Below, piece after piece: positions 2,450-17,019 of a stretch of DNA of 64,000 bases (position 1 is the stretch's first letter; every line of letters starts with the position of its first letter). A program made the position numbers and the translations under genes. The DNA comes from Pseudobdellovibrionaceae bacterium. GTDB taxonomy: Bacteria > Bdellovibrionota > Bdellovibrionia > Bdellovibrionales > Bdellovibrionaceae. The stretch covers positions 1-64,000 of the forward strand of contig JALHMX010000006.1 of NCBI GenBank assembly GCA_022843825.1, in the 5' to 3' direction. The notes under the pieces are model-generated. The model did no database searches, was not told where the DNA came from, and saw only the letters and a program-made list of their open reading frames with translations.

Positions 2450-4006
2450 TTACTCTTGAGCGGGAATACGTTCAAGGTTGTCTTCGTTGATTTGAACTTT
2501 GAAAACATCAACATTTGACCAGTTAGAAAATTCGTCTTTATCTTCTTTACGGACGCGCCAAAAATATTCTCCGCCTTCGACTTGGTCGGTGATGAGTAAT
2601 TTATTACGAGTGGTAAAGACAGATTTGACAACTTGAGTGAATTCTTTATCTCGTGCAATTTCTACACGAAAGCGATTCTCTTCTCCAGATGAGGTCCAGT
2701 TAAGCCATACATATTTTCCCGAGTCCTTCTGGAAAAAATAAAACTTATTAGAAGTTTCCCCTACAATAACTGGCGCTTCTAATGTAAAAACTTTGTCATA
2801 GGTCACTTGACCCACATCAGATGAGCTGATCTTGCGACCTTCAGCATCTAATGCATGGATTTGATAGGAATACTTACCTGGCTTAGGTACTTCGATAACG
2901 CTAGCCGGACTACGAGAATCATATTTTTTTATAGTTTTAGCACTTTTGGGATCTTTAACTTCAACGACGTATTTATCGGCTAAAGGAACTTTAGACCATG
3001 CTACATCGAACTTTTCTTTAGTGCCTCTATCATAGGGGTTTTTAGCGCGATACTCTTTATTCAATTTAGGGTTTTTTATCTTGATTCCTGGGAAATCAAC
3101 CTGAATTTGACCTACCTCTGAGTAGTCGCTAAGTTGACTGTCCTTTCCAATACTGCGTCCTCGAAAAAATACGTTTTTAGCCAGACGACTTAACGATAAT
3201 TGAGTCGTTGTTGGATTGAATTTTTCAATATTTTGAAAATCAGGCGTGTTCGATATTTCTATTTCATATGATTCTGCTTGGGCATCAGGGTTCCACTTTA
3301 AAACCTGATCAGCGCCATTAATAGCACTATATCTGATATTTAAACTATCAAACTGGGGCGGCTGAAGCGAAAGTACGGGGCCAGCTTCTTCACTAGCCAC
3401 AGATCTTTCCAAGTTATCTAAAATTCCTTGATTGGCTATCTCGAGAAAACTTTCAGCAATGTCTTTTGATAGCTTCTGTGCTTTAAATTCTTTGACTGCA
3501 ACTTCTGATTTAGTATCAACGGCTACGCTTCCACATTTTTCAGATTTGTTAAAATTAATGGCACCCTTCTGTTGAGACACGCTATAATCGCGGCCACAGT
3601 CCGATATAATAATGTCTTCAAGAACCTCGTCCATCTGCACGGCTCCGTAAGGAATATCAATGACTAGTTTTTGATTTTTAGTTCTAAATTTAATTAACGA
3701 GTTCGGAGCTACAGTTATAGTTTGCCCGCCCTCGAGCTTAACGATAACACTTGATTCACTTCCAGTAAATATACTGTCACCCGCATTAAGGTTGTCACCT
3801 CTGCCAACGTCTTCCCAAAAATAATTGGCTATATTTTTTTTGCGCACATCTTTTTTAACTTGCTCTAAGATACCAATAGACTGCGATGATGCCGAGGTGA
3901 TCATCTTGAAAAGCGAATCATCTTGAATTAAAAATGCACAAATAGCTGCGATAAGTAAACAAACCACAGTTATAGTTCTATTTTTACGATTGCTCAGAAA
4001 ATTCAT
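2450..4006 (-). CDS. FecR-domain protein with Fn3-like repeats, membrane-anchored
   Basis: An N-terminal hydrophobic segment (residues ~11-27, after NRKNR) anchors or exports the protein. Residues ~68-110 match the FecR fold: RGDNLNAGDSIFTG, then a SSVIVKLEGGQTITVAPNS pattern. The remainder (~215-510) is a series of beta-sandwich repeats with Trp-containing strands such as LKWNPDAQAESYEIEIS and WLNWTS, like Fn3-type modules of envelope proteins. FecR domains in other bacteria relay signals or bind envelope ligands; the ligand here is unknown. The chosen ATG (4004-4006) begins a normal signal-anchor; an upstream in-frame TTG at 4084 would add 26 non-hydrophobic residues. No clear ribosome site precedes the ATG. 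It diverges from the PP2C gene, suggesting a shared role. Confidence 0.8.
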   Translation of the reverse strand: MNFLSNRKNRTITVVCLLIAAICAFLIQDDSLFKMITSASSQSIGILEQVKKDVRKKNIANYFWEDVGRGDNLNAGDSIFTGSESSVIVKLEGGQTITVAPNSLIKFRTKNQKLVIDIPYGAVQMDEVLEDIIISDCGRDYSVSQQKGAINFNKSEKCGSVAVDTKSEVAVKEFKAQKLSKDIAESFLEIANQGILDNLERSVASEEAGPVLSLQPPQFDSLNIRYSAINGADQVLKWNPDAQAESYEIEISNTPDFQNIEKFNPTTTQLSLSRLAKNVFFRGRSIGKDSQLSDYSEVGQIQVDFPGIKIKNPKLNKEYRAKNPYDRGTKEKFDVAWSKVPLADKYVVEVKDPKSAKTIKKYDSRSPASVIEVPKPGKYSYQIHALDAEGRKISSSDVGQVTYDKVFTLEAPVIVGETSNKFYFFQKDSGKYVWLNWTSSGEENRFRVEIARDKEFTQVVKSVFTTRNKLLITDQVEGGEYFWRVRKEDKDEFSNWSNVDVFKVQINEDNLERIPAQE

Positions 4007-4147
4007 AGTCTTATTATCGCCAGATCCAGTAACAAACAGTAGATCTAGTCGGGTCCAGAATGTCTCTCCAGAATGCGACGGCAAAGTCTAGTCCAGTTGA
4101 GCTGGTCCTCGACTTGCCTTTTTTCAATATAAAAAAGATTATTAATA

Positions 4148-5938
4148 ATGATCAAATTCAATAGCTTAAAAGCCAAAATCATTACATTATTAACGACCAC
4201 TTGTCTGACCGTAGCTTTCATACTTTTATACATTTTTATCTCGTTTTATAAAAAAGATAAAATTGCATATATCTTTGAAAATAATGCGGTCATTTTAGAT
4301 ACAGTTGGAGAACAATTCAGACGCGAAGTAGAGTTCAGTTCAGAAATGATCAAGGTTCATTTAGAACATGCCAAAAATAATAAAAAACTTTCTTTATTAC
4401 CTACCAATAATTTGCCCGAAGACTATTTCCTGGATAGCATTGCGGTCTATTTGAAAAAAGACCAGCTTGTCGTCGTAGACAAGTTGAGTAAACCGAGCAA
4501 AGATATCTCAGATTCTTTTGTAGAAAACTTACTAGTGGGTCAAAATACTAATGACGATCAAAGCGTACACATTGATAAACTAACAGTGACTGTAATTTCT
4601 GAATTCAAAAATGAAACGCAAAGTTGGGTACTTGCCTATCAGTTTCAATCCAACACCCTTGCTGATTATTTTAAGAATACGACAACGATTAATACCGCTT
4701 TAATTGATAAAACGGCTGGTGTAAGCCAATTTGATTATCCCCAAATTAGCAACTTGAGCGCCGAGCAAATTAATACTGAGCTGATGACAAATATTATCCC
4801 TTTGCTCAACCAAACATCCGTAACTCGCATGATCACTTTTGATCAGGAAAACTACCTGTTTTCTTCAACAAAACTTTATCAAAGTCAGACCTACCTATCG
4901 ACTTTTGTCAGCGAAAGCAAAATTCTTGAAAATCTAACTAGTTTGATGATCAAGGCCATTCTCTTCTTTATTTTAATCAGCTCCCTCGTCGTACTTTTAA
5001 GCTATTTTTCTTCAGACTATTTAACTCACCGATTACATAAACTGACACAGTCTGCCCAGCGCATTGCCGGGGGACAATTCGATGAAAAAATTCAAGACTC
5101 TGGTAATGACGAAATTTCAACTTTAACCACCGGCTTTAACCAAATGAGCACTGAAATTTCCCGCCTTCTTAACGAGACGGCCAACAAGGCCCGAATGGAA
5201 TCAGAACTTAAAACAGCCCAAATTGTTCAGTCGACATTATTTCCTAAAAGTTCCTATGAATCTGATTTCATACAAATAGAGGGTTACTATACCTCAGCGA
5301 GTGAATGCGGAGGAGACTGGTGGCATTATCATGAAAACGAGAACTATGTTTGGGTATGGATAGCAGATGCTACAGGTCATGGAGCTCCGGCTGCCCTTTT
5401 AACCAGCGCTGCTAAATCGGCTGTTAGTATTATCGAAAACTTAAATTTGCCAATTAAGGAATCTTTTGAACATCTGAACTCGGCGATCTGTAATGTATCA
5501 AAAGAAAACATGATGATGACAAGCTTCGTGGGCGTAATTAACAAAAAAACCTTGGAGCTTCACTATGTCAACGCTTCCCATGAGCCCTCTATCTTAATTA
5601 AAAAAAGCGACTCAATCTCTAAAGATGATCTGATTTTTCTTAACGAATCAACGAATCCGCGACTAGGACAATCAAAAAGTTCTCAATTTATAAGTTCTAC
5701 TGTAAACCTTAACCACGGAGATCGCGTTATATTTTATACTGACGGAGTCATGGACATTCGCAGTCCAGATGACAAGCAATATGGTGAAAGATCTTTTATG
5801 CGGGGCTTAGTAAAAAGTTACAATGAGTCCCAAACATTGACAGAGTTTTATACTCACTATGAAACTAGTCTTAGTGACTTCAGATCTAACACTGAACTTA
5901 TTGATGATGTGACTTACTGTTTTTTTGAAATCAAATAA
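4148..5938 (+). CDS. membrane HAMP-PP2C (RsbU/SpoIIE-type) Ser/Thr phosphatase
   Basis: A sensor phosphatase of 596 aa. TM1 spans residues ~10-32, an extracytoplasmic sensing region ~33-265, TM2 ~268-292, a HAMP linker ~293-345 (QSAQRIAGGQFDEKI, GNDEISTLTTGFNQM), then a short coil and an SpoIIE/RsbU PP2C domain. Metal-binding motifs are present: GGDWW near 388, DATGHGAPAALLT near 407, VNASHEP, and GDRVIFYTDGVMD. Family members dephosphorylate a phosphorylated STAS anti-anti-sigma protein, and a STAS-like gene follows 16 bases downstream. No anti-sigma kinase (RsbW) gene is in the window. It is probably co-transcribed with the next two genes and diverges from the FecR gene. Confidence 0.92.
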   Translation: MIKFNSLKAKIITLLTTTCLTVAFILLYIFISFYKKDKIAYIFENNAVILDTVGEQFRREVEFSSEMIKVHLEHAKNNKKLSLLPTNNLPEDYFLDSIAVYLKKDQLVVVDKLSKPSKDISDSFVENLLVGQNTNDDQSVHIDKLTVTVISEFKNETQSWVLAYQFQSNTLADYFKNTTTINTALIDKTAGVSQFDYPQISNLSAEQINTELMTNIIPLLNQTSVTRMITFDQENYLFSSTKLYQSQTYLSTFVSESKILENLTSLMIKAILFFILISSLVVLLSYFSSDYLTHRLHKLTQSAQRIAGGQFDEKIQDSGNDEISTLTTGFNQMSTEISRLLNETANKARMESELKTAQIVQSTLFPKSSYESDFIQIEGYYTSASECGGDWWHYHENENYVWVWIADATGHGAPAALLTSAAKSAVSIIENLNLPIKESFEHLNSAICNVSKENMMMTSFVGVINKKTLELHYVNASHEPSILIKKSDSISKDDLIFLNESTNPRLGQSKSSQFISSTVNLNHGDRVIFYTDGVMDIRSPDDKQYGERSFMRGLVKSYNESQTLTEFYTHYETSLSDFRSNTELIDDVTYCFFEIK

Positions 5939-5954
5939 ATGAAAAGGATATTAT

Positions 5955-6428
5955 ATGCAAAACACTATAATCAAAGTTAACAATACAGGCGGCGCGACTC
6001 AAATTGATGTTATAGGCGCTATAGATGAAAATTTCAGTCAGTTTACTAAGGATATTCCTAAAGCGGGAAATGTTGAATTCTCATTACAAAGTTTGAAATC
6101 GATAAACTCTACTGGAATTCGTGAGTGGATTAAGCTTATGCAGAGCTTATCCGGAGCTCAAATATCATTTGCCTCATGTCCCAAAATATTTATTGATCAG
6201 GTTAATATGGTTAGTGGTTTTATTCCCGCAAACTCAAAAGTAACGTCTTTTTATGTTCCCTACTATAACGAAGACTTAGATCGTGAATGCTTAGTCCTTT
6301 ATAAGGATGGTGAACACTACAATGGCAGTAACGTTAATGTTCAGGAGAATTATACTGACGCTGAAGGCAACTCGTTCGAATTAGACGTAGTCAAAGCAAA
6401 GTATTTTAAATTTTTACAGGGCGCTTAA
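5955..6428 (+). CDS. STAS-like (anti-sigma antagonist-like) protein, 157 aa
   Basis: The first ~95 residues follow the STAS/RsbV pattern: an opening beta-hairpin, GAIDENF, then LQSLKSINSTGIREWIKLM, where the Ser-Thr pair near residue 50 occupies the site phosphorylated in anti-sigma antagonists, then a second strand-helix unit. The last ~60 residues (from about YVPYYNEDLDREC) are an acidic extension not typical of RsbV. AAGGAT precedes the ATG. Its place right after a PP2C phosphatase supports a substrate relation, inferred from known RsbU-RsbV pairs. The partner that STAS would bind is not in the window. Confidence 0.75.
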   Translation: MQNTIIKVNNTGGATQIDVIGAIDENFSQFTKDIPKAGNVEFSLQSLKSINSTGIREWIKLMQSLSGAQISFASCPKIFIDQVNMVSGFIPANSKVTSFYVPYYNEDLDRECLVLYKDGEHYNGSNVNVQENYTDAEGNSFELDVVKAKYFKFLQGA

Positions 6429-6444
6429 TTAAAACAGGGTAACA

Positions 6445-9402
6445 ATGATCAACACTAATCAGCTAAGTGACAATCAAACTCAATCAGCTCGAAGAGAGCT
6501 TTATGAGATCTATGCTGATAATGCTGTAAAACCGCGCTATAAGAAAAAACTTATCGAAAGCCTTGATGAAATCTATGGATATGATCTTGTTTTTCTGGTG
6601 GGTTTAATTATGCACTCTGAGTTTTCGGGTAACCTTAATGTAATTAGTCAATCAAATGAAATCAGTGGCATCAGCTTCTCAAATGGTAAAATCACAAAAA
6701 TTGATCTTAACGATAAAGAAACATTTATGGGAGAGCTGCTCATCAAAGAAGGCTTTCTGGATAGAAAAAAACTTCTCGATTTATTACAAGATCAAAGTAA
6801 ACCTCTGGGTGAGCTCCTGATCAAAAACAATATCGCAACTAAAGAACAAATTATCGGTGTCTTAGTTAAACAAATGCGACTTCGCCTATCTAAATATATT
6901 AACAATACCAAGTACCGCGTTAATTTTTCAGAAGTCGATGTATCTGATTCAGAACTATCAATTTCTTACCAGGAATATTTAATTTTAGTCCATGATTGGG
7001 TTGCCGGTCGATTTGATGGCGAGTGGCTAAAGCTTCACTATATGGAACTCAGTGAAAGTCTGATCGATAATCCAAAAAACAGCACCGAACAAGAACACAT
7101 TAAAGATTTAGCCCTGTCAAAAGACCTTAAAATAGCTTTGCCATCAAATGACAGTCCGAAAGTTTTTTCTAAGGTCTTCTCAGAAATTAAAAATGAAAAA
7201 GATCAAGAATACTTTCTAAAAAGCTTTCATTATGGGATTATTACTGGACAAGTCTCACTTAGAAAAGATGCTGAAGCAGCTTCTCACTCGGATTCCATTC
7301 TGAAAAATATATATAATGCTTGCAGCAAAAAAACAGGTGCAGAGCTGCTAGAGACGCTGGCGCATATTCTAAAATATAAGCCCACAGAAATTGATGCTAT
7401 ATTTCAAACTATTAGTAACTACGTAGATACTTACACCGGCGATGACCATGATATGAAAAATAATATGTTTCGTATCGTTTTAGAAATGCTTTCCAAAAAA
7501 CAATATTATAACAACGAAATTAATAAAAAATATGCTTCTCAGGTAGACCCCACTAAAAATACCGAAATCTCTAATAAAGTCTCAGAAGTTTACAGAGATC
7601 TATTAGCTAAAAATCTATTTGTAGCAGTTGATAAGCTAAAAAAGCTCAATGAATACGGTTCCCATATATCTAAAATTAAACTTTATATGGTTTGGGCTAA
7701 AGCACTTATGATCCATCAAAATAATATTAGAATTAATGTTTCGGATTTAGAGCGTGATTTTTTACAAATACTACCGGAAGACAAAGACACAGCAGAGTAC
7801 CACTACGTAAAATCCATTTTATTCGTGTTAAAAAAAGATGAAACTGCAGCAAAATCAAGTTTTGACCAGGCCACACGCATGAATGTTGAGCTAAAAAAGT
7901 ATCCACCGTTCAAGGAATCGAGGTCTTTCATTAAAAAATTATTTAAACTTTCGCTGATCTTCGCGGTTTTAGGTGCGCACAGTCCAGATGTAGCATATTC
8001 ACAGCCCAGTTCTCAGTCAGTAGGCGGACATAAATTGCCTTTTGTTTATCTTAATCAGTATTTTAACTATAAAGTTATAGATAAAGACGAATCAATTGCA
8101 ATCAATGAAGTGCTCTTTAGTCTTAAAGATATGAATGTTATTCATACCGAATCTACTTACGAAGTTGAACTTAAAAATTCATTAGAACGATTTAATACAT
8201 CAGCTGAGTTCTCTTTTTTATCTAAAAATGACAAAAAAATGGTAAAAAGCTCCTCAAAATATTTAAATGGTATGCACTCAATAGCTAAAAGTCAGCTCTC
8301 AGCTGATCATCTTTGTCTGCTTCAAAAAAATGAACATACCAACATACAGATATGCAAAAACTTAGTTGAATCAAAATCGGCTGTAGGAATTAGCGTCTTC
8401 ACCATTAATAATCAAAACGTACAAAAAGAGGGTACCGTTATACTTAATGATAAGGCACAGAAAATCAGCTTGAACGCCATGAATAAAATGCAAGATTTCT
8501 TTAAGCTTGAAACTCATCAGCGTGTCATATTGCCTGCTAAAATTGAAAAATCTCCTGATTCTGAAGAATTTGAAATTCAGTTTGTTGACGCAAAAAATTT
8601 GCGGATTGCATGGCAGGAAAATGTGAATATGAATCAAAACTCTTTTCCAATTAAATTGGATAATATAATTACTTTAAGACAGGGTATATTTTTTAATGAT
8701 ATATCGCCTGATTCAGGCATGTCGCAAGTCTACATTGATCGCAGCAAAATACAGACTAAACATTTTAATAAATTTATTGTTGAGCCCATGGCTATTTTCG
8801 AACAAGTCATTGGAAAATCTGAAACCGTCGATGCTACTCTGAGAACTGGCATGGGAAAAGGATTGAGTTTAGCTTATGAACGGCACCTGCAAAGTGGACA
8901 GAATATTTCTGGAGCGCTTTCTTTTTATTCAACAGCAGTCGAAGAAGGGCAAAGCAATGTACTGATTCTTAATGCAGATCATTCGCTGCTCGGCCTGCAG
9001 GCCGGATATAAATACTTTTTTAGTGATAACCTAAATATCACTGGAGTTTTAAGACTCAGAGAAGAACTCTTTTTGAGCCAAGAAAACTCTACAACTGTCG
9101 GCGTTAGCAAAACCTTAGTCGGCATGTTCGGAGCAAGTCTGGATTATGCACTATATAGCGCTCATAAAATTAATGTGGGTGCGGAAGGTGGCGTTTTCGC
9201 CCTGACGCCTAATAGCGTTAAGGGCTCTACACAAACCAGTGTTGGTTTTTCTATTGAAGCGGGAGCTAGGGCCTCATACAAAGTAGATTGGGGACGTATT
9301 AACGCAAGCATGTTATTAGGATCTCGTAATCAAAAAAATAGCGAGTTTGTCTACTCCGCTAGTTACATCGTTTACAAAGCGGGTTTTACGTATCTGTTTT
9401 AG
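6445..9402 (+). CDS. 985-aa fusion: DUF4388/MshEN-like and helical N-terminus, internal hydrophobic segment, C-terminal outer-membrane barrel
   Basis: Residues ~40-90 look like DUF4388 (FSGNLNVIS, GISFSNGKITKID). Residues ~90-155 are two GspE-N/MshEN-type repeats (GELLIKEGFLDRKKLLDLL, LGELLIKNNIATKEQI), a domain that binds cyclic di-GMP in some families. Residues ~250-490 are helical, TPR-like. A hydrophobic stretch (~494-518) ends in VAYSQP, an acceptable signal-peptidase I site. Residues ~520-775 look periplasmic, and ~776-985 alternate like beta-strands and end in YKAGFTYLF, a C-terminal aromatic typical of outer-membrane barrels. One continuous frame covers all of this. No ribosome site or good start was found at the junction that would make two genes. 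It is the third gene after the PP2C and STAS genes. Confidence 0.7.
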   Translation: MINTNQLSDNQTQSARRELYEIYADNAVKPRYKKKLIESLDEIYGYDLVFLVGLIMHSEFSGNLNVISQSNEISGISFSNGKITKIDLNDKETFMGELLIKEGFLDRKKLLDLLQDQSKPLGELLIKNNIATKEQIIGVLVKQMRLRLSKYINNTKYRVNFSEVDVSDSELSISYQEYLILVHDWVAGRFDGEWLKLHYMELSESLIDNPKNSTEQEHIKDLALSKDLKIALPSNDSPKVFSKVFSEIKNEKDQEYFLKSFHYGIITGQVSLRKDAEAASHSDSILKNIYNACSKKTGAELLETLAHILKYKPTEIDAIFQTISNYVDTYTGDDHDMKNNMFRIVLEMLSKKQYYNNEINKKYASQVDPTKNTEISNKVSEVYRDLLAKNLFVAVDKLKKLNEYGSHISKIKLYMVWAKALMIHQNNIRINVSDLERDFLQILPEDKDTAEYHYVKSILFVLKKDETAAKSSFDQATRMNVELKKYPPFKESRSFIKKLFKLSLIFAVLGAHSPDVAYSQPSSQSVGGHKLPFVYLNQYFNYKVIDKDESIAINEVLFSLKDMNVIHTESTYEVELKNSLERFNTSAEFSFLSKNDKKMVKSSSKYLNGMHSIAKSQLSADHLCLLQKNEHTNIQICKNLVESKSAVGISVFTINNQNVQKEGTVILNDKAQKISLNAMNKMQDFFKLETHQRVILPAKIEKSPDSEEFEIQFVDAKNLRIAWQENVNMNQNSFPIKLDNIITLRQGIFFNDISPDSGMSQVYIDRSKIQTKHFNKFIVEPMAIFEQVIGKSETVDATLRTGMGKGLSLAYERHLQSGQNISGALSFYSTAVEEGQSNVLILNADHSLLGLQAGYKYFFSDNLNITGVLRLREELFLSQENSTTVGVSKTLVGMFGASLDYALYSAHKINVGAEGGVFALTPNSVKGSTQTSVGFSIEAGARASYKVDWGRINASMLLGSRNQKNSEFVYSASYIVYKAGFTYLF

Positions 9403-11083: not shown

Positions 11084-14000
11084 CTAATTACCTACACCTA
11101 AGTTTGGATCAACTAAACGTGTGAAATATGTTAGACGATCTATAATATCTAAAATACGAGGCTGTGATTGCTGCATTGAAACCCCATCCATCATACTGCC
11201 AATAACTTCAGAACCGGCAATCACCTGACCATTCTTCAAAGTGATATTGACACCTGACAACCCTTCAACAAGGAAGGCCTGAGCGTACCCTATTAAAGGT
11301 ACTGCGCTTAATTGATCATTCACTGGTCGTATTTTCTGAATCTCTGTTACAACTTTTTGAATTTCTGCATTTAGGGTCTCTGGCGCTGCTTTTTCTAGAA
11401 TGCTTTTATAACCCATAAAAAGCTGCAACTGATTAAACATAAATTTGCGCATTTCAATAACTTGAGATTCAAATTGATAAACTCCGTACTGTGGATCATC
11501 ATAAACTTTCGGCATAATGCCGCCCAGTTCGTTATATTCTCTAATACGTACAAGCAATGCTGCCGCCATTTGATCAGCGTCCGCCTTAGCCGCTTGAACC
11601 ACAGGGTCTTCTTGATCTCGGCCCATATGTTTTAAGTCAGCTGTTAACATATTATTGAGTAAGCTCACCATATGAGCCTTATTAGTTAAATAAACATCTG
11701 CATTCGCCGCACTTTGTATTAATGCCTGTGATGCAATACCATTTTGTGTCGCGAAATAGACAAGGGTGTCTGGTCTTGTGCGATCCTCACCCATTCGCGC
11801 AACATTAAGTCGATACTTAGGCGCAGAGGCTAAGCGGGACGAGCTTAGCTTAAAGCTTTCGGCAAAGGCATCAAATGAACTCCATTTCGACTCGTAAAAT
11901 CCAATGACTGCACCCACAGCGGCCTGCTGATCTATATATTGATTACTAGGAACTTTAATTCCTGTCTCAATAAATGTACCGGATGGACTGAAAAATCCAC
12001 TTGATAAATTGTCTGTCATAACTTCGTACATCAAGTTTACAATCAGTGACTGTGAAGGATCCGACATGCCTAAAATGTATTGCTCGAAGTCTTTAAATGA
12101 GAAAACACTTTGTTGAGCATCACTTGTTACATCAACTGATGAAGCTGACATTAAAAAATTTAATGCAAACATCTTATCATAAACAATACCCATCGTATCA
12201 ACTTTATCACGACTTAGGCCCACATCCCATACTGGGCGTGCCTCTACAATTTTTACATCTTTTACAGTTTTCTCAATTTGATTTCCAGCGCTGTCAACTT
12301 CGATCGTTTTGTACTGAAATGGAAATACAGTATAACGATTGTCATTTAAATAGCCGCTATTAGTTGTAGGCGTACGAATAACATCTTGAAAAAATTTGTA
12401 TCCCTCAAAAGCAGCATACAATAAATCGTTCGTTATTTGCTGTTCTACATTTTGAGGTCGACCAGACCCGTAGATGAAAGCCACTGAGAACGCTTCATCC
12501 AAAAATGCACGAATTTGCGCAAAAGTTTGAATATTTCTTATGATAATCTGAATTTTTTGCGGCCATCCGAAAACAATTTTATCAGAAACATAGTTTCTTG
12601 TAGCAAACGATCGATTGTAATCTGCTATCATGGTATTTACAATTTCAACTGCAGATCCGCCTGTATCAAATCGATTACACATAATTGACGTGTAAGTCCC
12701 GCCATCACTACATTGTTCATAGTGTTTGATGATTCCGTCGATATTTAAGGTATCTTTAGTAAAATGTACTAGCGAGTTTACACCCTTAACTTTCATTATA
12801 TCTTTTATATGAATCATATTTTTGTTAATTAACTTAATACCTAATGATTCAAATGCCTTTGCGTTAGCTGCAGCGACACGTGCATCCATTTCTACGTATC
12901 CCGTATAAGCTGCACGAATGGCATGCGCATCATATGGGCCGGGTCCAGCATAATACTGATCGATATCAGATACGTAATCCATGATAGACGAATAGTTACG
13001 TCCGGTTTTTTCTCCTGGGAATTCATAATTAGCCTTATCTGTAGAGGCTTTGAAATTATGCATTAGTCCAAAAGCATGTCCTAATTCATGTGATAATGTA
13101 CTCATCACGCCTTGTTTAAAGTTCAACATTAAATTTTTATGTGGATCTGGATCCATAGCAAGCGCCATATCATTGATTTCATTTCTTGAGTACAAGAAAC
13201 AACCTGGGCGATTTTGAGTCGCGCGATCAAACCGCACTGACATAGCTAAGATTTGCTGTCTTCTATTTACTAAGCTTTTAACATCTTCAGACAGTCCGCC
13301 ATGAGCTAAGAACATGTCGTTAATTCTGAATTCGAACTCACGCTCGTTCTGCATAAGCCGTTTATTCATAGCCATATCAGCTATTTTCTTAATCATCGTT
13401 GACGAATTTGTGGGTAAATTAACTTTATCAGAGCGCGAACCACGCTTCAATACGTTTTTATCTATTTTGGTATTCAGTTTCAATTGTGGAGTAGCGGTTG
13501 AAGTCATGCCACTGAGCATATTACGTACGTTCTGCTTGTCTAAATCAAAGTACTTAATCATATCTTTAAGATATTTTTTATTGTCACTTGTCAGTTGATT
13601 AATTTCTTTTACAATTCCGCCACCAATAGAACCTTGCTCAGTCTGGCCTACGTCCAATGACCCATTTTCTTTAAGCTCTTTTAAAGCTTTAGTTTTCATT
13701 TGCTCGATTTTCTTTTCATAGTCACGGGCAAGTTCAGTCATCTTTAACAAGATTTTAGTTTGTTCGTATGTATTACCTGTATAAACGATAGCATTAGCCG
13801 ATTCAATAACACCAGAACGTGGATTCGCGGCTGGCTGCGCAACCCCAAGTAATCCATTGTCAGCAGGGATTTCATTCAACCAAATATAATTTCTATCCAG
13901 GTCTCCTAATCTTCCCGTTTCCTTTCCTGGCTCTTCGATAACTAATTCAAGATAATCTCCAGATCTTTCTAAAGTAGTACCCTTGAAAGCATAAGCAAAA

Positions 14001-16090
14001 ATTCTGTTCCATTCGTCAACAACTTGCTTAGTGGCTTCGACTAAAAGCTGACGACGCTCTGGATTAGTCGCCTCAGGATTATTAATTCCGCCTAAATACC
14101 ACTTCATCGTTTTGCCATTACGCAAATCGTGAATCATTGGGAGATACTTTTCGCTGCCATCACGGTTATTTAAGGCGCCACTTTCATTATTTTTATCTGC
14201 TAAAGTAAATACGCCGTAGTTGAACGCTTCTTGAGCCATATGAGAAATATTCTCAGTAAATTGTATATCTGCAGTGCCTTTGTGTTTAACAAACGAAATA
14301 CGTTCAATCACATTGAAGTTTAGCTGCGCTAAAGCAGCCCAGTAAGCTGCATTCACATCTTTAATAGCAGCACATGACGTGTCCACAGTATGGGAGCTGC
14401 TGATAGAGAAATTAAGCACTCCATCATTTGCCAATCGCATGTCCATACCAGTAACTTTTTTCGACGAATCAGCAATAAAACAGCTTCCAGCATCATAAAA
14501 TGCCAAAGGTGATGACGCATCTGGAATCGTGTTTCTAGTCCAATCCAGTTTAATGTAATTGGCTTTCTCTTTAGTCGTTTCAACTAGATTTTTTAAGACC
14601 AGATTACTTCCATGAGCATCTTGTACTTCAACGTAATAGTATTTAACTGGAATAGACATTAATTCTTCGCGGTCTTTAGCGCCCTGACCAGTGTACTTGA
14701 TTAATGACATTTGATTTCTAACGACTAAACGATCTTCTTCAAGCTCAAATTTGATGATGTTCATGTCACTTGAAGTACCAGTTCGACCAATAAAGCTTGT
14801 CGCCGCGTCTTCTAAAGTACGACGAAACATAAATTCGCCTTTAAGATCTTCAATTCGAATCGAACTGTCCGGATCTAACAAACCCGTCACTTCATATTGA
14901 CGAGCAGTAGAATTTTCTAAAATTTCAACCATACCTACGCTTTGAGATTTAGGTACTTGAATAGACTGTACAGTTGCCGAAGTAGTTCCATTAGGGTCAG
15001 TTAATGATAACTCTAACTTTTTATACGCAACTGGTACGCCGGCAACTAAAACGATCACACAAGTCTGAGGTGGATTTGAAATCACACCTTTAAGTTCGAC
15101 ATCATTACAAGATACTACCCGACCACCCGAACCACCATTTTTGTATATACGGACTTGTTCTTCAGTTAACTTTGATAAATCGGTAACTTCATAAACCAAT
15201 AAAGCATCTGGAGAAAGCTTGGTTACTACCTGAGCTTTAGGATTTAAGAATTTGATACCAATTTTTAGTTCTTCGGCTAACTGCTCAACTGTTAACAGAC
15301 GCTTATCAATTTTATCTTGTCTAAATAGCTGTTTCATTTCACGAACCTGATCCGCACTTAGTCCTATAACCTTACGAGCATCTGTTCGCGAGTTGATTTT
15401 AATGTGGGTAGCTTGTGACCAGTCTGTCTCTTTAAGTCTTAGGACCGAAGTCTGTTCCTTTAATTCATTTTTAGTGCGCTCTAAAATACCGTACGCTGCG
15501 ATTTCATACTTAAACATTGGAACAAGTAATGTTCCGGTTGCTTTACCAGCTTTAATTAGCTCACGTTCTTGCGCCGCGCTTTTTTGCTCTTGAGCTAAAG
15601 TTTTTGCCTCGTTTTTCTTAGAGACAATGATTTTACTTATTAAATTCGCTTCCCGGGCCGAAATGGCTATGCTTTTCTCGATCGCATTAAGCAACTGAGC
15701 ATCATTAACAACTTTATATGCAGTAATGTTATTTTTATCGACCGAAAAAGAAATGTTGAATTGCTTATCGGTTCTGCTCGTTAATGGTAAACTATCAAAC
15801 ATAAACTTGATGCGTCCCGGAACATTAACATCTTCAGATGAAAGCCTTTGTGCTTCATCAAAATCCAAGATTTGAATTTTATCCGGATTGGATGCCTCAT
15901 CCACCAAACTTACATTCGCGGAAAAAGCCGAGCTTTCTTGAGGAGCACCGAACATTGATATTTCATAAACATCTGGGGCTATATCTTCAGGCAACTCCGC
16001 ATTTCTGCTTTTAGTGCAGGAAGTAATAGCAAATACTGCAAGTATTACTAAAAATCCCAGTGTTTTGTCCTTATTTATAATCTGTCTCAT
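11084..16090 (-). CDS. giant metzincin-type zinc metalloprotease lipoprotein, 1668 aa
   Basis: The N-terminus is a lipoprotein signal with lipobox ITSC (Cys ~26) followed by TKSRNAE, so the product should be lipidated. At residues 1001-1011 it has HELGHAFGLMH, the extended metzincin zinc motif HExxHxxGxxH, and about 35 residues later SSIMDY supplies the Met-turn. These predict an active zinc endopeptidase. The ~970 residues before it contain beta-rich stretches and a Lys/Gln-rich helical stretch (~130-175). The last ~600 residues are mostly helical. Related large zinc-dependent proteases are known in Bacteroidetes, Myxobacteria and Bdellovibrio; the substrate is unknown. In a predatory bacterium prey-protein digestion is a reasonable guess, but only a guess. 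It follows a barrel gene by 32 bases. Confidence 0.85.
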   Translation of the reverse strand: MRQIINKDKTLGFLVILAVFAITSCTKSRNAELPEDIAPDVYEISMFGAPQESSAFSANVSLVDEASNPDKIQILDFDEAQRLSSEDVNVPGRIKFMFDSLPLTSRTDKQFNISFSVDKNNITAYKVVNDAQLLNAIEKSIAISAREANLISKIIVSKKNEAKTLAQEQKSAAQERELIKAGKATGTLLVPMFKYEIAAYGILERTKNELKEQTSVLRLKETDWSQATHIKINSRTDARKVIGLSADQVREMKQLFRQDKIDKRLLTVEQLAEELKIGIKFLNPKAQVVTKLSPDALLVYEVTDLSKLTEEQVRIYKNGGSGGRVVSCNDVELKGVISNPPQTCVIVLVAGVPVAYKKLELSLTDPNGTTSATVQSIQVPKSQSVGMVEILENSTARQYEVTGLLDPDSSIRIEDLKGEFMFRRTLEDAATSFIGRTGTSSDMNIIKFELEEDRLVVRNQMSLIKYTGQGAKDREELMSIPVKYYYVEVQDAHGSNLVLKNLVETTKEKANYIKLDWTRNTIPDASSPLAFYDAGSCFIADSSKKVTGMDMRLANDGVLNFSISSSHTVDTSCAAIKDVNAAYWAALAQLNFNVIERISFVKHKGTADIQFTENISHMAQEAFNYGVFTLADKNNESGALNNRDGSEKYLPMIHDLRNGKTMKWYLGGINNPEATNPERRQLLVEATKQVVDEWNRIFAYAFKGTTLERSGDYLELVIEEPGKETGRLGDLDRNYIWLNEIPADNGLLGVAQPAANPRSGVIESANAIVYTGNTYEQTKILLKMTELARDYEKKIEQMKTKALKELKENGSLDVGQTEQGSIGGGIVKEINQLTSDNKKYLKDMIKYFDLDKQNVRNMLSGMTSTATPQLKLNTKIDKNVLKRGSRSDKVNLPTNSSTMIKKIADMAMNKRLMQNEREFEFRINDMFLAHGGLSEDVKSLVNRRQQILAMSVRFDRATQNRPGCFLYSRNEINDMALAMDPDPHKNLMLNFKQGVMSTLSHELGHAFGLMHNFKASTDKANYEFPGEKTGRNYSSIMDYVSDIDQYYAGPGPYDAHAIRAAYTGYVEMDARVAAANAKAFESLGIKLINKNMIHIKDIMKVKGVNSLVHFTKDTLNIDGIIKHYEQCSDGGTYTSIMCNRFDTGGSAVEIVNTMIADYNRSFATRNYVSDKIVFGWPQKIQIIIRNIQTFAQIRAFLDEAFSVAFIYGSGRPQNVEQQITNDLLYAAFEGYKFFQDVIRTPTTNSGYLNDNRYTVFPFQYKTIEVDSAGNQIEKTVKDVKIVEARPVWDVGLSRDKVDTMGIVYDKMFALNFLMSASSVDVTSDAQQSVFSFKDFEQYILGMSDPSQSLIVNLMYEVMTDNLSSGFFSPSGTFIETGIKVPSNQYIDQQAAVGAVIGFYESKWSSFDAFAESFKLSSSRLASAPKYRLNVARMGEDRTRPDTLVYFATQNGIASQALIQSAANADVYLTNKAHMVSLLNNMLTADLKHMGRDQEDPVVQAAKADADQMAAALLVRIREYNELGGIMPKVYDDPQYGVYQFESQVIEMRKFMFNQLQLFMGYKSILEKAAPETLNAEIQKVVTEIQKIRPVNDQLSAVPLIGYAQAFLVEGLSGVNITLKNGQVIAGSEVIGSMMDGVSMQQSQPRILDIIDRLTYFTRLVDPNLGVGN

Positions 16091-16122: not shown

Positions 16123-17019
16123 CTAAATTCTTATTCCTATAGTTAAATAAATAGCTGAGTTGTCTTCATCAACAATCTGAACGTTTGATTCATATCCGTT
16201 AGCTTCTAAAACCGAAGCGGCATCATTAGTATGACCGATGGTCGTGTAAAAATTGTCATTAAACGCGTAGGAAATTTCCTGAACGGTCACAAACGACTGA
16301 CGGATATTATTCTGATAGGTCCACCGTGATCGATTTGTATAGTCAAATGAAAGAGTCCAATATTCCCAAGCGTAGCCTACAGAAATAGTTTGGTTTGAGG
16401 AATATTGGCTTAACACCTGACCATTGATATCTTCTTCATATGAATGGAAGCTCCGTCCAGCAGTTACAGCTAGAGCTGCACTTAACCCATTAGCACGAAT
16501 ATCGCCAACGCTCTTGGGATAAATTCCTACACCTAAACCTAATGAAACTGCACCTTGCAATTGATTCTTTTTAACTGAAATGTCTGAAAGAGGAATAATT
16601 GTGGTAATAGATGGTGCTAAAATCAACTGCTTCCATTCCCAATCATAAGTCGGGTAAGAATTTGAGTAGCTAACTAAAACATCTGCAAATCCATTCTCAA
16701 TATTTTCAACATCACGCAGATCTTCGCCGTAAGTCGCCTTTAACGAAAACAAACCAATATGGGTAGCCAATGATGGATTAATTAAAAAACTTAGATCATC
16801 TGAACGAGAACCATCTTGATGATCATACAATCCTGTACTTCGTGTAATTTCAAAAATAGATGAGAAGGAAATTTGAGAGCGTTCTTCTTTTATAGTCGTT
16901 TTTTCTGTTAATTTTAACTCTGACTGAGGTGGTGTGCCGATCGATGAAGTCTGAGCATAGCCTTGGCCATAAACAACAAGAAATAATAGTGTCGTCAAAG
17001 CTTTTGCAATTATTCCCAT
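16123..17019 (-). CDS. outer-membrane beta-barrel protein, 298 aa
   Basis: A signal peptide (residues ~1-22, ending GQGYAQ) is followed by alternating polar/hydrophobic strands throughout, such as SISVGYAWEYWTLSFDYTN-type pairs, and the chain ends YLTIGIRI. This fits an outer-membrane barrel of about 12 strands. I do not recognise a specific family. It is the first gene of a two-gene unit with the metzincin lipoprotein, so it may help place or use that protease at the outer membrane (inference from adjacency only). Confidence 0.75.
   Translation of the reverse strand: MGIIAKALTTLLFLVVYGQGYAQTSSIGTPPQSELKLTEKTTIKEERSQISFSSIFEITRSTGLYDHQDGSRSDDLSFLINPSLATHIGLFSLKATYGEDLRDVENIENGFADVLVSYSNSYPTYDWEWKQLILAPSITTIIPLSDISVKKNQLQGAVSLGLGVGIYPKSVGDIRANGLSAALAVTAGRSFHSYEEDINGQVLSQYSSNQTISVGYAWEYWTLSFDYTNRSRWTYQNNIRQSFVTVQEISYAFNDNFYTTIGHTNDAASVLEANGYESNVQIVDEDNSAIYLTIGIRI

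Follow-up and report, generated by a model that had tools for sequence, protein, structure and literature searches.

An in-frame fusion of a cytoplasmic DUF4388/TPR protein and a predicted outer-membrane barrel in Pseudobdellovibrionaceae: a candidate internal-signal polyprotein

Introduction

The fbcH gene of Bradyrhizobium and relatives encodes a cytochrome b/cytochrome c1 precursor, which is cut by signal peptidase at an internal signal peptide. The open reading frame (ORF) described here likewise encodes, as a single gene, two proteins that are normally separate, and the signal peptide of the second has become internal. However, both fbcH products reside in the inner membrane, whereas here a cytoplasmic protein is joined to an outer-membrane barrel in a chain whose cleavage we infer. 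A literature search, with subscription journals largely outside its range, returned no bacterial internal-signal polyprotein or single-chain trans-envelope barrel protein, and a cytoplasmic/outer-membrane pair within an internal-signal polyprotein is, as far as found, new. The case amounts to a naturally occurring test of signal peptide function and cleavage behind 490 cytoplasmic residues with a product bound for the outer membrane, for which the split relatives are ready-made controls.

The separate DUF4388/TPR and barrel pair of Pseudobdellovibrionaceae (e.g. G010 C79, G004 C12 and G018 C1) comprises the same two proteins in the same SpoIIE-STAS-DUF4388 neighbourhood and with the signal peptide at the same position, but as two genes, each with its own start and stop, unlike the fused ORF. 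The surrounding genes recall the SiaABC(D) module, in which a HAMP + SpoIIE phosphatase likewise lies beside a STAS-like protein (for an example of SiaABC-type phosphorylation switches, see PMC7647112). Unlike in that module, the conserved third partner here is a DUF4388 protein and the fourth a barrel protein.

Results and discussion

Architecture of the fused protein

The window, i.e. the whole stretch of 64,000 nucleotides that was analysed, derives from a Pseudobdellovibrionaceae bacterium (G000) and contains the intact fused ORF, with the following parts:

6445-9402, + strand: fused ORF of 985 residues, from an ATG start to a ...YLF end, without internal stops
6445-7923, + strand: N-half, residues 1-493, a cytoplasmic DUF4388/TPR protein (separate gene in G010, G004, G013, G005 and the rest of the order)
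6580-7014, + strand: DUF4388-like region, residues 46-190 (profile match below the curated cutoff)
6727-6873, + strand: degenerate MshEN-like helical insert, residues 95-143 (profile match below the curated cutoff; motif test)
7537-7932, + strand: TPR-like helical domain, residues 365-496 (model, and TPR matches in relatives)
7912-7932, + strand: possible remnant of the old gene 2 start site, AAGGAATCGAGG - TCTTTC - ATT (codon 496), absent from G007 and G001
7924-8001, + strand: junction, residues 494-519, where the basic tail of gene 1 meets what was the gene 2 signal peptide (hydrophobic core and c-region)
Within 7924-8001, + strand: proposed signal peptidase I cut, AYS519↓Q520
8026-8754, + strand: predicted periplasmic all-beta region, about residues 528-770, opening with the conserved PFVYLNQYF (model)
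8755-9399, + strand: predicted ten-stranded outer-membrane barrel, residues 771-985, ending in ...FTYLF (model and structure comparison)

The N-half (residues 1-493) lacks a signal peptide. Its AlphaFold2 model, computed from a 17-row alignment with a mean pLDDT of 81, is mixed alpha/beta in its N-terminal part and helical thereafter; residues 365-496 resemble TPR repeats by structure comparison, helical matches of such size being common. Foldseek with the N-half returned nothing below an E of 0.001 and TPR-type similarity only, and TPR matches were also found in the N-half proteins of relatives. The DUF4388 profile (PF14332) scored 23.6 bits with the window protein, against a Pfam gathering score of 25, and 25.4 bits with the orthologue at L051 3181-5130. 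The GspE-N/MshEN match (MshE-type c-di-GMP motif) reached 26.3 against an NCBIfam cutoff of 38. MshEN receptors of c-di-GMP are defined by two 24-residue motifs of the form RLGxx(LVI)(LVI)xxG(LVI)(LVI)xxxxLxxxLxxQ (PMC5013675), and this published pattern, strict or relaxed, had no match in the window protein. Thus, of the domains that the earlier note had named in the N-half, the TPR-like helices stood and DUF4388 came close to its cutoff, whereas GspE-N/MshEN stayed well below its own; a c-di-GMP-type sensor is a weak proposal given the degenerate motif, and c-di-GMP sensing was set aside on this ground. The N-half was also found not to be Bd2492, the TPR protein of Bdellovibrio that binds MglA: Bd2492 has 353 residues and belongs to the tamAB operon (PMC3983030).

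Residues 516-985 were modelled with AlphaFold2 from a nine-row alignment (mean pLDDT 84.8), which yielded about 240 residues of beta domains followed by a barrel of the ten-stranded OpcA/OmpT type (model residues 256-470, protein residues 771-985). This barrel matched pOmpT (7xw0; Z 20.7, rmsd 2.7, 203 residues aligned) and OpcA (2vdf; Z 20.6, rmsd 2.5, 198 residues aligned), the latter also by Foldseek with an E of 1.8e-6. The shared barrel fold (Z about 20.6) is a likeness of fold only, as sequence identity is just 8-15%, and the approximately 240 periplasmic residues ahead of the barrel are a difference from OpcA/OmpT. The closed antiparallel barrel of the model and the terminal aromatic residue (FTYLF) characterise a predicted outer-membrane beta-barrel, as the earlier note had read from the sequence of the C-terminus ending in YLF. 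A signal peptide at the N-terminus, which the separate homologues possess, is missing from the fused protein, where the signal-like segment is internal (494-519).

Fused and split relatives

The same single ORF was found in two further genomes of the same genus, namely G007 (L025 6899-9901, - strand; 1000 residues, 57% identical to the window protein; contig JACMMZ010000036.1, a Pseudobdellovibrionaceae MAG) and G001 (L016 645-3191, + strand; 848 residues, 27% identical). G011 was kept outside the fused count, its barrel end lying at a contig edge. All these genomes are draft assemblies, so that an assembly or sequencing artefact at the junction comes to mind; yet three separate assemblies of species diverged to 57% and 27% identity agree on the same junction, which leaves an artefact scarcely credible. 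Assembly error was rejected on this basis, and with it the frameshift that the earlier note had feared.

Homologues with the halves as separate genes, proposed in the earlier note as a check, were found in G010, G004 and across the family. In G010, the N-half gene (512 residues) and the barrel gene (494 residues) are separated by 1 nt, and in G004 the two genes overlap by ATGA; both barrel genes have ordinary signal peptides of their own (MNKIVLLAILCVSFFAQA↓Q and MKLFNGVLFLSFMVPFCVLA↓Q, respectively). In G013 and G005, the STAS gene is followed by the barrel gene, towards which the N-half gene is oriented. In G005, these two convergent genes are separated by a small REP-type transposase-like ORF (L020 7740-8261). 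Other family members have at this locus an N-half gene of 640-660 residues near an exported barrel-type gene of 540-610 residues, usually convergent and adjacent, and always beside SpoIIE and STAS genes. Outside the window's genus, the N-half proteins scanned possess an extra N-terminal receiver domain, which the window's genus has lost, as exemplified by:

L049 12578-14506: receiver-bearing N-half protein
L050 7474-9459: receiver-bearing N-half protein
L051 3181-5130: receiver-bearing N-half protein

The N-half family is present in 118 of the 141 genomes of the order, and only three have the fusion. Except in these three, its open frames do not exceed 766 residues, and open frames matching the barrel-half profile, whose conservation is too low for a pattern scan, extend to at most 737 residues outside the fused genes. 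Because the frames are this short elsewhere, the comparison indicates that the fusion is a derived, lineage-restricted joining of two linked genes, limited within this sample to a single genus. When the window protein was used for a scan, only the G007 contig matched, and a plasmid search gave no matches. In a tree built for one versus two fusion events, G001 sits on a long branch. Halves that are separate in relatives and fused in frame here are one hallmark of an internal-signal polyprotein.

The junction

In the separate N-half proteins, the C-terminus is a short amphipathic tail with basic residues (YFKKILKFMGIKK, LSKIKKFLGVT). The fused proteins read SFIKKLFK, SFIKNLFK or SKFKNVFK at this position, and what used to be the hydrophobic core of the signal peptide follows directly. 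To produce this arrangement, one indel would be enough at an overlap like the ATGA of G004. Residues 499-509 are the most hydrophobic 11-mer of the window protein (Kyte-Doolittle mean 2.42) and are followed by D-V-A-Y-S↓Q-P, in agreement with the hydrophobic segment at about 494-518 ending in VAYSQP that was pointed out in the earlier note. The top 11-mer of each fused protein lies in the junction, with values of 2.35-2.61 compared with 2.4-3.2 for the signal peptides of separate barrels. G000 (AYS↓Q) and G007 (GYA↓Q) retain Gln at +1 and a small residue at -1 at the place that aligns with cleavage in the separate proteins (AQA↓Q in G010, VLA↓Q in G004); the residues around the cut are thus preserved in two of the three fused proteins, and the site of G001 is poor (NYC↓D). 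A hydrophobic segment plus a signal peptidase I site, a second hallmark of an internal-signal polyprotein, can accordingly be read in the sequences of G000 and G007 and weakly in that of G001.

Gln or Asp/Glu at +1 is the rule in the barrel family: in its exported proteins (G000, G007, G010, G018, G024, G019 and others) this residue is nearly always Gln and otherwise Asp/Glu. The ORF at 16123-17019 of the window also has Gln at +1 (GYA↓QTS). This habit may resemble the Gln rule at the signal peptidase site reported for Bacteroidetes (PMC5837995).

A home-made signal-peptide score was trained without this family on 41 putative signal peptides, among them some lipoproteins and anchors, and is therefore rough. 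Its two top-ranking sites in the complete G000 chain, and its top three in G007, all fall in the junction. Against cleavage at the proposed point, the score slightly favoured VLGA511↓H over AYS519↓Q in G000, and in G001 the junction was not the top-scoring place of the chain. Between G000 and G007, the junction displays a codon-position pattern of 0.45/0.23/0.61, i.e. that of translated, constrained sequence.

The earlier note had left two alternatives, a trans-envelope chain and an internal-signal polyprotein, and the comparative evidence speaks for the second. In the uncut chain, the segment would be a permanent inner-membrane anchor, and the protein would run from the cytoplasmic DUF4388/TPR part through the periplasm to the outer-membrane barrel. 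Cytoplasm and cell surface would then be covalently linked, in an arrangement that could carry signals or tether membranes. The lysines before the segment (inside-positive orientation), the degraded cleavage motif of G001, and the approximately 240 periplasmic residues of beta domains, preceded in G000 and G007 by a longer linker than the separate proteins have, are all compatible with such a chain. However, the junction 19-mer of the fused proteins (1.28-1.50) is less hydrophobic than the real anchors of the window (2.2-2.8) and so resembles a signal peptide more than a membrane anchor, the cleavage-site residues are kept in G000 and G007, and the separate relatives imply that function needs no covalent link. 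We therefore regard an uncut chain as rather unlikely.

As to the polyprotein, the barrel gene is a separate, adjacent gene in relatives, with its signal peptide exactly at the internal segment, and signal-type hydrophobicity and cleavage residues in two of the three fused proteins point the same way. An internal Sec signal and signal peptidase I cutting into two proteins, after AYS here and after GYA in G007, is thus the reading towards which we lean, with somewhat better than even confidence. It must be weighed that the -3/-1 rule is easily satisfied by chance, and that, for Sec engagement behind about 490 cytoplasmic residues, the core is short and its hydrophobicity rather low. The G001 protein, given its poor cleavage point, may be cut badly or stay whole.

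Alternatively, ribosomes might also start within the fused frame, at the ATT of codon 496 behind AAGGA/GAGG, and yield some lone barrel with an N-terminal signal peptide. In G000, a Shine-Dalgarno-like sequence and a near-start codon do occur where the old start is expected, and the separate gene of G010 has AGGAG at its start; by its sequence, the element at 7912-7932 resembles a former ribosome-binding site, with ATT now in place of the start codon. Nevertheless, ATT is a very poor start, G007 has neither ATG/GTG/TTG near the junction nor a 4-base Shine-Dalgarno match in the right place, and G001 offers TTG/GTG codons alone, the best of them preceded by a 4-base match. Matches of at least 4 bases precede about 23% of random codon positions, and the junction codons evolve like ordinary coding sequence. 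Internal initiation is accordingly improbable, and an internal start as the main route was discarded, there being nothing comparable in G007 or G001 to the G000 element.

Maintenance of the barrel half

A further alternative holds that the chain is made but its barrel half is not exported and drifts, so that only the N-half matters. Between G000 and G007, the barrel half is less conserved (34% identity) than the N-half (72%), and a further barrel gene, separate from the fusion, exists in G001 (L022 5448-6998), both of which would fit a degenerate fusion. Yet barrel halves are poorly conserved among the separate genes as well, no other barrel copy was found in G000 or G007, and the ORF is open in three genomes, with the fold and the ...YLF terminus kept, the latter in all three fused proteins. 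In addition, the barrels of G007 and G011 differ with a dN of 0.28 and a dS of 1.43, i.e. a low dN/dS of about 0.2. We thus consider degeneration highly improbable. At the second locus of G001, where this separate barrel gene lies, it and the STAS gene flank an ATPase-like ORF of 397 residues (L022 4103-5296).

The preserved fold and end motif of the barrel half make it most likely, as judged from the sequences, that the junction has remained an internal Sec signal. The segment probably works, because a barrel that did not cross the inner membrane would be of no use and the chain shows no other export signal.

Proposed processing

Comparison shows that two functionally linked genes were joined when the stop codon between them was lost. 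Gene 1 encodes the cytoplasmic DUF4388/TPR protein that goes with the SpoIIE-phosphatase/STAS module. The product of gene 2 is exported to the outer membrane and is predicted to consist of periplasmic beta domains and a ten-stranded barrel. To judge from the alignment, the basic amphipathic tail of gene 1, SFIKKLFK, would serve as a new n-region for the old signal peptide of gene 2. During synthesis, the N-half would stay in the cytoplasm, and the internal segment would enter SecYEG lysine side in, with the C-half passed to the periplasm. Signal peptidase I would then cut after AYS519 and so release the barrel half, which would be inserted in a BAM-dependent manner. The N-half would remain cytoplasmic and probably retain the signal segment, a short tail held at the inner membrane. 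The two ancestral proteins would thereby arise from one message and one chain in a fixed ratio, presumably in equal amounts.

Gene neighbourhood

Upstream of the fused ORF, the window contains:

2450-4084, - strand: FecR-like gene, divergent (named by sequence inspection)
4148-5938, + strand: HAMP + SpoIIE phosphatase, SiaA-like, in the same cluster (SiaA profile E 2.4e-21, below the cutoff)
5955-6428, + strand: STAS-like gene of 157 residues, beside the N-half gene across the family (named by sequence inspection)

The STAS-like gene had no match in a Pfam and NCBIfam search, and neither a SiaB kinase nor a SiaD diguanylate cyclase was recognised in the cluster. The FecR-like gene also adjoins the SpoIIE gene in G007, G010, G013, G016, G014 and G047. 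Across the family, the N-half and barrel genes are neighbours, usually convergent, next to the SpoIIE-phosphatase/STAS operon. As fusion joins proteins that tend to work together, the fusion and this family-wide neighbourhood tie an uncharacterised barrel to a cytoplasmic SpoIIE/STAS/DUF4388 module in Bdellovibrio-type bacteria. We would guess that the module links cytoplasmic control to the state of the envelope or the surface.

Many relatives have a 265-residue gene without Pfam or NCBIfam match between SpoIIE and STAS (e.g. L017 3681-4505). Its homologue is found on another contig in G000 (C7 1812-2489), G007 and G011, and it could be the kinase of the switch. Elsewhere in the window, positions 11084-16090 encode a putative lipoprotein of 1668 residues with the zinc-protease motif HELGHAFGLMH; the same place in G007 and G011 is occupied by a protein of about 1130 residues, 24-28% identical over part of its length, between well-conserved flanking genes.
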